From contig PWJZ01000015.1 of assembly GCA_003559855.1 (NCBI GenBank), positions 1-37,312 on the forward strand: 37,312 nt of DNA. The letters are read 5' to 3'. The stretch comes from Bacteroidales bacterium. GTDB lineage: Bacteria; Bacteroidota; Bacteroidia; Bacteroidales; UBA7960. Below, piece by piece: positions 24,860-29,816 of the stretch (position 1 is the stretch's first letter; each line of letters begins with the position of its first letter). Position numbers and translations under genes: made by a program. The notes under the pieces were generated by a model. The model was not told the origin of the DNA. It saw nothing but the letters and a program-made list of their open reading frames with translations, and searched no databases.

Positions 24860-25696
24860 ATGGTATCAGAAGAAGTTTCAAAATTAGTAGATAGTTTAAT
24901 ACAAAAATATGACGGACATCTTATTTCTGTTCTGGAAAACATACAGTTGTTTTGTAATTATTTACCTTCGGATTATTTGCGTGAAGTTAGCAAGCAATTA
25001 GAATTACCTTTGAGAGATGTGTATGGGGCGGCAACTTTTTATAAAACATTTTATTTAAATCCAAGGGGAAAGCATATCTGTACCGTATGTCTTGGAACTG
25101 CTTGTCATGTAAGAGGCGGTAACTTTATTATTGAGGAGTTTGAGCGGCAACTTCATATAAAACGCGGTAAAACAACGGAAGACAATAATTTCACACTTGA
25201 AACAGTGAATTGTATGGGTGCTTGTGCAGTCGGGCCGATTGTAATTGTTGACGGCACCTATTATTCTTATTTTAAGACATTAGAGGCAAGAAAAATTATA
25301 AGAACGATCTTAAAAGAAAGCGAAAAAGTTGATATTACTAAAGATAAACGCATTTTTCCCGTAAAGGTGAATTGTCCGAAGTGTTATCATTCACTTATGG
25401 ATAATGAATATTTGATAGACGGGCATCCTTCCGTAAAGGTTACAATTTCATTTTTGGATAAACACGGATGGTATAGGCTATCATGCCTTTATGGCGTTTA
25501 TAATGTTGAATCGGAATATGAGAGGCCACATGGTGTTGTGGCAAATTATTTCTGTCCTCATTGTCATGCGGAAATGCTTGGAACGTTTTTATGTCCTTTA
25601 TGCACCACTCAAATGGTTTCTTTGGTTCTGACAGGAGGCGGAAGCGTTCATGTGTGTCCGATGCGAGGTTGCAAGGGTCATTTGCTTGATGTTTGA
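24860..25696 (+). CDS. NuoE/HydC-like [2Fe-2S] subunit with C-terminal zinc-ribbon tail
   Basis: A 278-residue protein. Residues 1-155 are a NuoE/HndA-type thioredoxin-like ferredoxin: helical N-terminus, DVYGAATFYKTF, then [2Fe-2S] ligands C77 and C82 (CLGTAC) and C118 and C122 (CMGAC). Normal NuoE-like subunits end at about 155-170 residues. Here about 120 more residues follow, with four cysteine pairs: CPKC (172/175), CPHC (232/235), CPLC (245/248) and CPMRGC (266/271). These look like two zinc ribbons or rubredoxin-like knuckles. First gene of the redox operon; it should deliver electrons with the NuoF-like subunit. The next operon gene begins 949 bases later because a repeat-flanked GxxExxY gene lies between. 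Confidence 0.9.
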   Translation: MVSEEVSKLVDSLIQKYDGHLISVLENIQLFCNYLPSDYLREVSKQLELPLRDVYGAATFYKTFYLNPRGKHICTVCLGTACHVRGGNFIIEEFERQLHIKRGKTTEDNNFTLETVNCMGACAVGPIVIVDGTYYSYFKTLEARKIIRTILKESEKVDITKDKRIFPVKVNCPKCYHSLMDNEYLIDGHPSVKVTISFLDKHGWYRLSCLYGVYNVESEYERPHGVVANYFCPHCHAEMLGTFLCPLCTTQMVSLVLTGGGSVHVCPMRGCKGHLLDV

Positions 25697-25715: not shown

Positions 25716-25884
25716 GCCATGAATGGATGAATAAATAAGCCACGAATGGATGAATAAATAAGCCACGAATGGATGAATAAATAAGCCACGAATGCACGAA
25801 TAAAATAATGAATAATAATTGTACTCAATTCGTGCATTCGTGGCTAATAAAAAACAATTCATGCATTCGTGGCTAAAAAATATC
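25716..25884. repeat. Palindromic tandem-repeat cassette, upstream copy
   Basis: Four left units of period 23 (GCCACGAATGGATGAATAAA-type, beginning 25716, 25739, 25762 and 25785) are followed by a 26-base spacer and two right units of period 29 in inverse orientation (ATTCGTGCATTCGTGGC-type, beginning 25827 and 25856). GCCACGAATGCACGAAT at 25785-25801 pairs perfectly over 17 bases with ATTCGTGCATTCGTGGC at 25828-25844. Bases 25752-25844 are repeated exactly at 26318-26410 on the other side of the GxxExxY gene. Confidence 0.97.
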
Positions 25885-25901
25885 AATAAATAACTAAAAA
25901 A

Positions 25902-26276
25902 ATGGAAAAAATAATATTCAAAGAAGAGAGTTATCAAATTATTGGTAAATGTATGGAGGTTCATAATAATTTAGGTCCGGGTTTTCTTGAGATAGTTTAT
26001 AAAGATGCTTTAGAGTATGAATTTAGTAGAGCAGAAATTCCATACGAAAGAGAAAAAAAATATGAAGTGAATTACAAAGGAATTATTCTCCCTCATCATT
26101 TCTTTGCAGATTTTGTTGTTTTTGATAAAATTATACTTGAAGTAAAAGGTTTAACTGCTTTAAGTAAAGAATTTACAGCACTTTGTATAAATTATTTGAA
26201 AGTTTCGAATAATAAATTAGCATTATTAGTAAATTTTGGAGAGTTAAAATTAAATTATAAAAGAATTTTGTTTTAA
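25902..26276 (+). CDS. GxxExxY-family protein (PD-(D/E)XK nuclease-like)
   Basis: A 124-residue protein. The family-naming motif is in NNLGPGFLEIVYKDAL (G-F-L-E-I-V-Y, about residues 27-33). A PD-(D/E)XK-like core follows: HFFADFVVFDKIILEVKG, with an aspartate, then E-V-K as the metal site and catalytic lysine. The C-terminal YLKVSNNKLALLVNFGE is also typical. Length is normal for the family (about 120-130). Its biochemical function is not known to me. It interrupts a redox operon in the same direction and is bracketed by two copies of one palindromic repeat cassette, so it probably arrived as a unit. It is strikingly A+T-rich compared with the genes around it. Confidence 0.92.
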   Translation: MEKIIFKEESYQIIGKCMEVHNNLGPGFLEIVYKDALEYEFSRAEIPYEREKKYEVNYKGIILPHHFFADFVVFDKIILEVKGLTALSKEFTALCINYLKVSNNKLALLVNFGELKLNYKRILF

Positions 26277-26281
26277 AATAA

Positions 26282-26624
26282 GCCACGAATGGATGAATAA
26301 ATAAGCCACGAATGCACGAATAAATAAGCCACGAATGGATGAATAAATAAGCCACGAATGCACGAATAAAATAATGAATAATAATTGTACTCAATTCGTG
26401 CATTCGTGGCAAACAAAAAACAATTCGTGCATTCGTGGCAAACAAAAAACAATTCGTGCATTCGTGGCAAACAAAAAACAATTCGTGCATTCGTGGCAAA
26501 CAAAATACAATTCGTGCATTCGTGGCAAACAAAATACAATTCGTGCATTCGTGGCAAACAAAAAACAATTCGTGCATTCGTGGCTAACAAAAAACAATTC
26601 ATGCATTCGTGGCTAATAAAAATA
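26282..26624. repeat. Palindromic tandem-repeat cassette, downstream copy, expanded
   Basis: Same design as the upstream cassette: four left units of period 23 (26282, 26305, 26328, 26351), the identical spacer, then eight right units of period 29 from 26393 to 26624 (AATTCGTGCATTCGTGGC plus an A-rich linker). Units 4 and 5 share a variant linker (AAACAAAATAC), and the last unit carries the same C-to-T-type variant (AATTCATGCATTCGTGG) as the last unit upstream. The repeat creates long false reading frames in several registers on both strands. Confidence 0.97.
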
Positions 26625-26645: not shown

Positions 26646-29600
26646 ATGAAAAAATATAATTCGGTTAGGGAGTTTTACAATTTCATGTTAAGTGTTTCAC
26701 AAGAGCAGAAACCCGATATTCCCTGTATAGTAATTAGTGCAGGGACCTGCGGACAGGCAAACGGTGCTAGTGATATTGCCAGAATAATAAAAAGGCATGT
26801 ATTAGAACATAATTTGCATGGGCGTTTGTCTTTAAGAATTACAGGTTGTTTGGGAAATTGCCAAATGGAGCCGTTCATTCTTATAGAACCCGAAGATATT
26901 ATTTACCCCAATCTTAAAGCAGATGATGTTCCACAATTGGTTGATGCTGTCATCAACGGCAGAGTTGCAGAAGATAAGCTCTATTATGATCCTTATTCCA
27001 TGAAAAGATGTCATGCGATTAAAGATATACCTTTTTTCAGATATCAGCAGAGTGTTATTTTAGAAAAAAATCAAAAAGTTGACCCTGTAAGAATCACAGA
27101 TTACTTTAAAACTGGCGGATATTCGGCATTTGTTAAAGCGCTATTCGATTCGGATGCTGATCGAATAATAGTTGATGAGGTAACAAAATCAGAGCTTCGG
27201 GGTCGTGGGGGCGCAGGTTTCCCGACAGGACTTAAATGGAAATTAACAAAAGAACAGGGAGGGGGGTCAGCGGAAAAATTTCTGATATGCAATGCCGATG
27301 AAGGTGACCCCGGTGCATATATGGACCGCAGCATTCTCGAAGGAAATCCGCACAGTATTCTTGAAGGTATGCTTTTGGGTGCAATGGCCATGAAAGCAAC
27401 GAGGGGAATCGTCTATGCCAGGTCGGAATACCCTCTTGCCATAAAGCATTTAACTATTGCTCTTCGCCAGGCAAAAGAATACGGCTTGCTTGGGAAAAAT
27501 ATTTTAGGTACAGGACTTGATTTTGATATTTCAATTATAAAAGGAGCGGGTTCCTTTGTCTGCGGTGAAGAAACTGCACTTATCCGTTCTGTTGAAGGTA
27601 AAATGGGCCAACCACGTCAACGGCCGCCTTTCCCCGTAAAAAAAGGAGTCTGGGGGTATCCAACCTGTATAAATAATGTGGAAACTTTTGCAAATATTCC
27701 TGTCATTATCAATGAAACCGCAGAAAATTATATAAAAACCGGGATTGAAAAAAACAGAGGTACGAAAATATTTTCTTTGGTAGGTAAAATAAGAAACACC
27801 GGTTTGGTTGAGGTTCCTTTAGGCACAAAAATCAGAAAAGTTGTTTATGATATTGGCGGCGGTCATCCTGAGAACAAAAAAATAAAAGCAATTCAGACCG
27901 GAGGACCATCGGGAGGTTGTATTCCTGAAAAGTTATTTGATCTATCCATTGATTATGAAAGTCTGTCGCAAGCCGGTTCTATTATGGGAAGCGGAGGAAT
28001 GATCGTGATGGATGAAGAAACATGCATGGTTGATGTGGCAAAATATTTTGCTGATTTTTTGCGTGATGAATCCTGCGGGAAATGTTCTGTTTGCAGGGAA
28101 GGAACTCAAAGAATGCATGAGATACTGACAAACATCACTGAAGGTAAAGGAAAAATTGAGGATCTGCAATTGCTTGAAGAATTAGGAAATGCTGTAAAAG
28201 ATGCTTCTATGTGCGGACTAGGACAAACCGCCGCAAATCCGTTACTTTCTACATTGAGGTATTTTAAAGATGAATTCATTGACCATATAATTAAGAAAAA
28301 ATGCACAGCAGGTACATGCCAGGAAATAATCTCATCTTCGTGTCAATACAATTGTCCCATAGATACCGAAGCACCTGTGTATATTTCTTATATTGCAAAA
28401 AAGAAATATAAAGAAGCACTTGAAATAATTAAAAAAGACAATCCTTTTGCATCAGTAGTTGCCCGTGTTTGTCATCATCCCTGTGAAAGAAGATGTAAAG
28501 CAAATGAATCAGGTGATGCAATTTCCATAAGAAACCTGAAAAGATTTGTTACTGATTTTGGGTTAAAAAACAAACTTTTGCTACATGTGTTGCCTCCGAA
28601 ACAAAAGATTGATATTAAAGTAGCAATCATAGGTTCCGGTCCGGCAGGTCTTAGTTGTGGTTTCACATTGGCAGAAAAGGGATATAATGTTACAATTTTT
28701 GAAAAACATTCTGTGATTGGCGGCATGCTTTCACTTGCTATTCCTGAATACAGATTACCTCAAAAAATTTTAAAAGCCGATCTTGACTATATTAAAAGCA
28801 TAGGACTTGATATTCAGACAAATAAATCACTTGGCAAAGATTTTAATTTGGATCTGCTTTTCAAAAAAAACTATAAAGCTGTATTTATCGCAACAGGTGC
28901 TTATAAATCAATGAATTTGGGTATACAGGGAGAAAATAGTAATGGTGTTATACACGGCATAAAATTATTAACAGACATAAAACTTGGAAAAGAAGTGAAT
29001 ATCGGTAAAAGAGTTGCTGTTGTTGGTGGGGGAAATTCTGCAGTTGATGCAGCGAGAAGCATATTAAGATTAGGAAAATCAGATTCCGTAACAATCTTTT
29101 ACAGACGAACAATCGCAGAAATGCCTGCATTTAAAGAAGAAATTGAAGCCGCATCAGACGAGGGAATTAAAATAGAATTTTTAACATCGCCCTGTAAAAT
29201 TATTTCTGATAAGGGAAAAATTAAAGCATGCGAGTTTATCAGGATGGAACTTGGCGAACCGGATGAAAGCGGAAGAAGAAGACCTGTGCCTGTTAAACAT
29301 TCGGAATTTATCGTAAATGTGGATACTTTAGTTGTCTCTGTTGGCGAACAACCTGATACTTCTTTTTTGCAAGAAGAGAAAATAGAGTTTACAAAATGGG
29401 GCACTATAAAAATAAATGATGAAACCTTTACTACAAACAGACATGGTGTTTTTGCCGGCGGTGATTTGGTTACCGGCCCAAATACGGTTATAGATGCTAT
29501 ATCTGCCGGTAAAATTGCAGCGGAATCCATCCAGCAATTTCTGACAGGGAAAGAAGTAAAACGCAAATATAAATTGACCAGACCTTCAGTTTATGTTAAA

Positions 29601-29816
29601 CCAATTGAGTTGTCAGAAAAAGAACAAGAACAATTGTTTGAAGCAAAACGACCTAAAATTATACAACATTGCGCTAAAGACAGAAAGTATGATTTTTTTG
29701 TAATAGAAAAAACGTTGACAGAAAAACAAGCGGAAAAAGAAGCAAAAAGATGTTTGCGGTGTGATATAATGACTAAAGAAGGACGAGAGTTTGTTGAAAA
29801 GGATAAAATTGTATGA
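26646..29816 (+). CDS. NuoF/HydB-like flavoprotein fused to a GltD/NfnB-like NADPH oxidoreductase
   Basis: A 1056-residue fusion. Residues 1-110: thioredoxin-like ferredoxin (C35, C68, C72). About 150-545: NuoF/HydB core with the FMN/NADH loop RGRGGAGFPTGLKW (185-198), ADEGDPGAYMDR, SFVCGEETALIRSVEG, and the [4Fe-4S] ligands CGKCSVC (477, 480, 483) plus C523. HydB proteins then carry a 2x[4Fe-4S] ferredoxin; here the linker KKCTAGTCQ runs instead into a GltD/NfnB module. That module has iron-sulfur cysteines C566/C570 and C609/C613/C617, FAD loop GSGPAG (663-668), NADPH loop GGGNSAVDAA (794-803) and FAD motif GVFAGGDLVTGPNTVIDA (934-951). One chain thus carries an NADH/FMN site and an NADPH/FAD site, as expected for a bifurcating transhydrogenase. 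The fusion reads through without stops. Confidence 0.93.
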   Translation: MKKYNSVREFYNFMLSVSQEQKPDIPCIVISAGTCGQANGASDIARIIKRHVLEHNLHGRLSLRITGCLGNCQMEPFILIEPEDIIYPNLKADDVPQLVDAVINGRVAEDKLYYDPYSMKRCHAIKDIPFFRYQQSVILEKNQKVDPVRITDYFKTGGYSAFVKALFDSDADRIIVDEVTKSELRGRGGAGFPTGLKWKLTKEQGGGSAEKFLICNADEGDPGAYMDRSILEGNPHSILEGMLLGAMAMKATRGIVYARSEYPLAIKHLTIALRQAKEYGLLGKNILGTGLDFDISIIKGAGSFVCGEETALIRSVEGKMGQPRQRPPFPVKKGVWGYPTCINNVETFANIPVIINETAENYIKTGIEKNRGTKIFSLVGKIRNTGLVEVPLGTKIRKVVYDIGGGHPENKKIKAIQTGGPSGGCIPEKLFDLSIDYESLSQAGSIMGSGGMIVMDEETCMVDVAKYFADFLRDESCGKCSVCREGTQRMHEILTNITEGKGKIEDLQLLEELGNAVKDASMCGLGQTAANPLLSTLRYFKDEFIDHIIKKKCTAGTCQEIISSSCQYNCPIDTEAPVYISYIAKKKYKEALEIIKKDNPFASVVARVCHHPCERRCKANESGDAISIRNLKRFVTDFGLKNKLLLHVLPPKQKIDIKVAIIGSGPAGLSCGFTLAEKGYNVTIFEKHSVIGGMLSLAIPEYRLPQKILKADLDYIKSIGLDIQTNKSLGKDFNLDLLFKKNYKAVFIATGAYKSMNLGIQGENSNGVIHGIKLLTDIKLGKEVNIGKRVAVVGGGNSAVDAARSILRLGKSDSVTIFYRRTIAEMPAFKEEIEAASDEGIKIEFLTSPCKIISDKGKIKACEFIRMELGEPDESGRRRPVPVKHSEFIVNVDTLVVSVGEQPDTSFLQEEKIEFTKWGTIKINDETFTTNRHGVFAGGDLVTGPNTVIDAISAGKIAAESIQQFLTGKEVKRKYKLTRPSVYVKPIELSEKEQEQLFEAKRPKIIQHCAKDRKYDFFVIEKTLTEKQAEKEAKRCLRCDIMTKEGREFVEKDKIV

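Follow-up and report, generated by a model that had tools for sequence, protein, structure and literature searches.

GxxExxY genes usually lie between palindromic heptad arrays whose type follows the protein subfamily: a probable two-component, REP/RAYT-like repeat system with an unrelated enzyme

Genes of the GxxExxY family are associated with palindromes built of short repeats, and insertion of these palindromes is seen among related genomes. The two arms of one element match each other, and the type of the repeat follows the protein subfamily. We consider that GxxExxY genes and palindromic heptads probably make up a two-component chromosomal repeat system, which resembles REP/RAYT but relies on an unrelated enzyme. 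The element described here lies in a stretch of 37,312 nucleotides from a Bacteroidales bacterium (contig PWJZ01000015.1), called the window below, and its genes and repeats are located as follows.

24860..25696, + strand: HoxE/NuoE-like 2Fe-2S protein gene, the upstream operon neighbour (PF01257, 137 bits)
25716..25801, + strand: left cassette, 5' array of 23-nt units with GCCACGAATG(G/C)A(T/C)GAAT, the first unit degenerate
25752..25844, no strand: exact 93-nt direct repeat, copy 1
25802..25827, no strand: left-cassette spacer (hairpin loop), 26 nt
25828..25874, + strand: left cassette, 3' inverted array, two units ATTC(G/A)TGCATTCGTGGC
25902..26276, + strand: GxxExxY gene, PD-(D/E)XK fold, 124 aa (TIGR04256, PF13366, alignments, model)
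26277..26367, + strand: right cassette, 5' array, four 23-nt units
26318..26410, no strand: exact 93-nt direct repeat, copy 2
26368..26393, no strand: right-cassette spacer (hairpin loop), 26 nt
26394..26613, + strand: right cassette, 3' inverted array, eight 29-nt units
26646..29816, + strand: NuoF/HoxF-like and GltD-like fusion gene, the downstream operon neighbour (profile matches)

Both cassettes share one build, in which 23-nt units with GCCACGAATGCACGAAT are followed by a 26-nt spacer and then by 29-nt units with the reverse complement. The 23-nt units start at 25734, 25757 and 25780 in the left cassette (a degenerate one lies near 25716) and at 26277, 26300, 26323 and 26346 in the right one, and the inverted 29-nt units start at 25826 and 25855 on the left and at 26392, 26421, 26450, 26479, 26508, 26537, 26566 and 26595 on the right. 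The cassettes match each other by 94% over 178 nt, and the direct repeat of 93 nt is a perfect match which cannot be extended. Two statements of the preliminary description, that same-build cassettes flank a gene of 375 nt (stop included) and that they carry a perfect 93-base direct repeat, thus hold down to the coordinates of the units and the 26-nt spacers. Folded as single-stranded DNA, the two hairpins reach -21.2 and -20.3 kcal/mol (z -10.0 and -8.5). No Rfam family matched the window at gathering scores, and a known RNA family was rejected for the related loci too, where two Rfam matches in four loci fell far below the gathering scores and were taken as chance.

The hoxE-like, GxxExxY and hoxF-like genes are all on the + strand and form one operon-like run. 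Between the stop of the hoxE-like gene and the start of the hoxF-like gene there are 949 nt in the window, compared with -14 to 299 nt in the 10 of 30 nuoE-type loci that could be read, which are mostly paralogues. It is therefore plausible that the element splits two genes which are normally adjacent, as had been proposed from the window; an empty orthologous operon was not found, and the sole close orthologue among 59 relatives (G343) stops at a contig end. At positions 1-2036 the window also carries a CRISPR-like array, with about 30 copies of CTATCAATCGTACCAAAGTGGAATTGAAAT and spacers of about 34-40 nt.

The protein matches the profiles TIGR04256 (131 bits; cut-off 35) and PF13366 (PDDEXK_3; 119.2 bits, cut-off 22), and the G-x-x-E-x-x-Y motif is formed by G27, E30 and Y33. 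In the alignments, all 26 of the varied members compared have E30, D70, E80 and K82; among 77 close relatives E80 and K82 never vary, and D70 is kept in 90% or more. The predicted structure (pLDDT 96.9) finds its best solved chain in 4ic1 SSO0001 (Foldseek E 2e-4; VIA Z 10.0, rmsd 3.4 over 98 residues), which we take to be a Cas4, and the next-best VIA Z is 7.9. Lambda exonuclease comes next in Foldseek (E 2e-3), and the eight best Foldseek rows consist of SSO0001, lambda exonuclease and an alkaline exonuclease, all of them presumably PD-(D/E)XK proteins. The Hjc and restriction-enzyme folds stayed under VIA Z 8 and were not taken as kinship, and the sequence search gave no solved relative at E 1. 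With profile scores above cut-off, the motif and a modelled PD-(D/E)XK fold with D...E-x-K, the assignment to GxxExxY / PDDEXK_3 made from the open reading frame is borne out, and the protein is a predicted PD-(D/E)XK nuclease, with Cas4, lambda exonuclease and RecB-type nucleases as the closest solved fold. It is smaller (124 aa) than the 4ic1 chain (202 aa), and it differs from Cas4-type nucleases in that its gene adjoins redox genes, the CRISPR-like array being about 24 kb away. At one locus of a window-like gene, described below, the GxxExxY gene is under purifying selection (dN/dS 0.02-0.10 in 10 pairs from 5 orthologous sequences). Such genes are present in 152 of 296 genomes of the phylum, and no publication assigning a role to GxxExxY was found in the open-licence literature.

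Inverted arms turned out to be a trait of the family. We used a motif-free score, in which the left flank is compared with the reverse-complemented right flank independently of any repeat pattern, on 90 GxxExxY loci of the phylum (one per genome, chosen as top-scoring matches, 30 as supplied by the search and 60 picked from its list, and not as a random draw). The median score is 15, and 72 of the 90 loci beat all 20 shuffles, while 18 fail to beat their own shuffles. For ParE genes, which served as control (24 of 30 loci used; six under 3.2 kb were dropped), the median is 9 and 1 of 24 loci beats all 20 shuffles (p 5e-10 vs GxxExxY), and for the PF05635 four-helix-bundle genes the median is 13, with 16 of 30 above all shuffles. 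The repeat patterns of T1 and T2 type defined below, unlike this score, were written after a first look at the loci. Flanks are placed roughly at two or three loci (L059, L109, L126), which are cut by a contig end or hold two genes.

The arms in the 90-locus set are tandem heptads of CRCRRAG, CRCRGAT or CRCKAAT, mostly 9-11 nt apart, and the purine-rich strand usually points towards the gene (per 200 nt, 2.34 and 2.44 inward vs 0.80 and 0.64 outward for the two flanks). Inspected by eye, Gemmatirosa, Bacteroides and Bernardetia show clear arms and Treponema short ones (11 nt); in Sphingomonas and a fusobacterium they are one-sided or irregular, and the Persicobacter and Prevotella loci have none. 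The boxed layout is thus not confined to Bacteroidota. As a separate observation, PF05635 (23S IVP) genes from other genomes (L168-L197) are boxed by inverted short tandem repeats too, which have a different grammar.

To relate repeat type to protein subfamily, two patterns were searched within 300 nt, namely T1, the CACGAAT type found in the window (C[AG]C[GT]AAT twice, one base apart), and T2 (CRCRRAG twice). Window-like loci were taken as the best 80 of at least 553 relatives of four window-like proteins, and 74 of them had enough flank on both sides. T1 occurs in 64 of these 74 loci (47 on both sides) and in 0 of 87 other GxxExxY loci, and T2, of the CACAGAG/CGCAAAG type, occurs in 0 of 74 and in 58 of 87, respectively; the other 10 window-like loci lack T1 under the pattern used. 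Neither T1 nor T2 was found at ParE (0 of 24) or PF05635 loci (0 of 30), and away from the gene T1 was present in 5 of 137 control stretches lying 0.9-1.5 kb from window-like genes. One of the 87 others, L108, has CACGAAT heptads with another spacing on its left side, and its protein falls in the CACGAAT clade. That clade was obtained in a tree of 113 proteins, where the CACGAAT label (type A) is found only in one supported clade of 36 rows, a clustering matched by 0 of 500 shuffles. These 36 rows comprise 17 of type A, 5 of type C, 4 of type B and 10 with none, and the remaining 77 rows comprise 64 B, 7 C, 5 none, 1 tie and 0 A; type C heptads are thus found in both main clades and type B reaches 4 rows of the CACGAAT clade. 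Moreover, the left and right arm of one element are 0.62 letters apart on average, vs 1.46 when arms are swapped between the 47 loci (0 of 2000 permutations). The link between GxxExxY genes and the repeat, which had been raised from this one locus, is general across genomes and not a local oddity of the window, whose repeat is one of several types.

By their MAG labels, the 77 window-like proteins come from Bacteroidota (59), Ignavibacteriota (9), Chlorobiota (3), Calditrichota (1), Planctomycetota (1) and Acidobacteriota (1), with 3 unlabelled. Transfer of the subfamily between phyla is not claimed, the 77-protein tree being too poorly resolved. At one further locus, L413 (G415), a decayed GxxExxY remnant with an internal deletion was noticed, both arms of which have shifted alike to a CGCAAAT-like type (by eye).

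The repeat is dispersed well beyond the gene. A search for the 17-base stem in the genome and its relatives had been suggested in the preliminary description, and in the window's own genome (G000, 131 contigs) the exact 17-mer GCCACGAATNCACGAAT has 37 copies, the letter-reversed control 0, while ATTCGTGNATTCGTGG with at most 2 mismatches gives 59 matches vs 5 for the control. Several copies stand at contig ends, so the assembly may miss some. The same genome has two more PF13366 matches: the gene on contig C48 is framed by GCCACAAAGACTCAAAGACTCAAAG arms (by eye; the pattern search labelled them "none"), and contig C86 holds a truncated GxxExxY gene between CGCAAAG-type arms (L047, 2949-3079; by eye). 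A second repeat, CAACGGGAGATC(A/G)CGA(C/T)CGAAGGGAGTAACAT, was also observed in this genome within the loops of three T1-type palindromes (L036 2150-2235, L042 3060-3145 and L043 1955-2045).

In the phylum, exact T1 is found in 15 of 296 genomes (control 0), the richest with 97, 47, 42, 37, 36 and 30 half-sites. All 15 have some GxxExxY gene (152 of 296 overall; p 3e-5), and 11 of the 15 have a window-like gene of at least 50% identity (28 of 296 overall; Fisher 7e-10), counts which are not independent as 8 of the 15 genomes belong to one genus. That genus covers 17 of the 296 genomes, of which 8 have T1, 10 a window-like gene and 6 both, and within it the window-like gene is present in 6 of 8 T1 genomes vs 4 of 9 others, which is not significant (p 0.22). 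The genome lists for these co-occurrence tests were counted by hand. A strict triple-heptad pattern of the other type was found in 21 of 296 genomes, of which 20 also have a GxxExxY gene; its fixed spacing is too strict and catches 1 of the 90 loci.

The T1 copies inspected are mostly palindromes whose loops range from about 10 nt to more than 130 nt, and some have a single exact arm; gene-less T1 palindromes are dispersed in intergenic DNA. Empty sites in relatives, which the preliminary description had proposed to look for, were found for the bare palindrome: at an orthologous site compared in 28 other loci of the genus, 4 loci carry the full T1 palindrome and 6 are empty (13-23 nt without repeat), the remaining 18 having other sequence or other palindromes. 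The 7-bp direct repeat ATATTTT frames a solo palindrome at a single AT-rich site, and target duplication as a rule is not claimed. It was also observed that one intergenic site of one genus (L359-L382) holds different, sometimes nested palindrome types according to species, as if it were an insertion hot spot. For the gene, states with and without it between the arms were found as well, whereas the operon of the window itself gave no empty site. At a window-like gene locus in the same genus, 24 of 30 loci are readable on both flanks (query included), of which 4 contain the gene. Among the 20 gene-less loci, 18 retain the right arm directly ahead of the following gene, and one has a decayed remnant. 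With the right arm kept, a gene insertion has no clean boundaries here, and the gene may as well have been lost as gained. Among the species read at this locus (24 loci) no repeat-free site was found, and no movement of an element within a species was seen.

The nearest known arrangement is that of REP sequences, which are thought to be spread by RAYT/TnpAREP enzymes, as set out in PMC2817692 and PMC6006769. With REPtrons and REPINs, the likeness lies in a small gene flanked by inverted palindromes, in one repeat family for each gene type, and in many gene-less intergenic copies with few genes per genome. However, the enzyme differs, since a Pfam scan of the window protein gives PF13366 (PD-(D/E)XK) only and not the HuH-Y1 domain (PF01797), and the arms are tandem heptads of variable number with no GTAG foot by eye. 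Y1_Tnp genes are present in 35 of 40 chosen genomes (13 of 15 with T1, 22 of 25 others). At the best Y1_Tnp locus of each of 30 genomes (12 with T1; stretches up to 3.4 kb), T1 or T2 was found in 0 of 30, within 300 nt or in the whole stretch, so the Y1 genes examined do not explain the heptad palindromes; several of these loci hold other, GC-rich palindromes (by eye). RAYT as the mobiliser of the heptad palindromes is not supported by these 30 loci, one per genome. Lacking a HuH domain, the GxxExxY pair is not a member of REP/RAYT; it probably works like that system, and would deserve a class of its own if cleavage were shown. A second comparison is with the CGTC repeats (PMC3733652), REP families with no known transposase, which are dispersed palindromes reported from Bacteroidetes, Chlorobi and Spirochaetes as well. 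The GxxExxY palindromes share with them the dispersal not linked to a transposase gene; they differ in having no CGTC tag by eye and in the candidate partner gene named here.

It is rather probable that the GxxExxY protein acts on its own palindromes, as the cognate link, the matched arms, the gene-less copies and the constraint on the gene suggest. Repeat types that track the branches of the family suggest a self-spreading pair of protein and repeats. In the proposed mechanism, a minimal PD-(D/E)XK nuclease like Cas4, RecB or lambda exonuclease would bind its cognate heptads in hairpin or cruciform form and would cut there, and host repair would then copy the palindrome, at times together with the gene, to new places between genes. 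In the window, one GxxExxY gene has an amplified hairpin cassette on either side, within a redox operon. Cleavage and mobilisation by the protein are steps that we infer. That the protein may process or spread the palindromes in a RAYT-like way was already the guess made from the window, and the subfamily-specific cognate link speaks for it; the strongest counter-argument is that gene and repeat are not significantly linked within the best-sampled genus.

Alternatively, the palindromes could be spread by other means (RAYT, slippage or recombination) and the GxxExxY gene could be cargo which survives well between them and acts elsewhere. The palindromes indeed far outnumber the genes (97 T1 half-sites vs 3 GxxExxY genes in G206), G222 has 36 exact T1 half-sites with no window-like gene, and at the locus read in the genus the arms stay where the gene is absent. 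Nevertheless, the repeat type tracks the protein subfamily across phyla, the best Y1_Tnp loci of 30 genomes carry neither pattern, and ParE genes are not boxed; we regard this explanation as unlikely.

An element acting as RNA was considered as well. Relatives of the four-helix-bundle genes (PF05635, S23) sit in 23S rRNA intervening sequences, where a small gene lies in the loop of inverted repeats, and in a similar element the arms would pair in the transcript, RNase III would cut it and insertion into an operon would be tolerated. In agreement with this, 68 of 89 phylum-set genes point the same way as their two neighbours, compared with 10 of 24 for ParE and 15 of 28 for Y1 genes (counts resting on a simple ORF caller, as do 21 of 25 for PF05635), and the four-helix-bundle genes share the inverted repeats. 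However, only 36 of 68 window-like genes share their direction with both neighbours, the same palindromes also occur alone, and each protein subfamily has its own arm sequence, a specificity that base pairing by itself does not require. Mismatches between the arms have no wobble signature, with 63 of G-U type vs 68 of A-C type in the phylum set (61 arm pairs) and 34 vs 47 in the window-like loci (61 arm pairs), so a constraint on an RNA stem was rejected and DNA is likelier than RNA as the level of action. The element also differs from the 23S intervening sequences in sitting between two protein genes, in having no PF05635 ORF but an unrelated protein, and in its repeat grammar. On these grounds an RNA element is quite improbable.

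Type III toxin-antitoxin systems use repeats as a control element, with RNA repeats only upstream of a ToxN-type endoribonuclease. A toxin-antitoxin or defence module controlled by repeat RNA or DNA would fit tandem repeats beside a small nuclease gene and a weak PADLOC match to a methyltransferase model (E 0.0027), but is very improbable here, as repeats stand on both sides with dozens of copies elsewhere, PF13366 and TIGR04256 are the only profile matches (none to a ToxN-type Pfam/NCBIfam model), and the type-B protein is found in 0 of 50,697 phage and 8 of 72,556 plasmid records. A phage origin was rejected too, as the phage records lack the type-B protein and no relative of the window-like proteins was confirmed in viral contigs, where none of 43 pattern stretches is a relative.

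Returning to the two-component system, the cognate repeat offers a direct substrate for testing the role of GxxExxY proteins. Such a system would also mean that a REP/RAYT-like strategy evolved with a second, unrelated nuclease, and would account for the dispersed palindromes found here without a RAYT. It is conceivable, and we advance it tentatively, that a widespread and unrecognised class of self-propagating repeats exists, in which a Cas4-like nuclease gene within heptad arrays spreads itself and, more often, bare palindromes, with heptads specific to each subfamily, and in which PF05635 genes share the architecture with another grammar. If so, two very common small-gene families of Bacteroidota would form the coding part at the core of repeat elements. 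In the open-licence literature, no publication linking GxxExxY or PF13366 to repeats was found, which does not imply absence from print. Besides, on a Sphingomonas plasmid (L451) a GxxExxY gene was observed between fabD and fabG; all three genes run in one direction, and a heptad-like left arm directly precedes the start of the GxxExxY gene.
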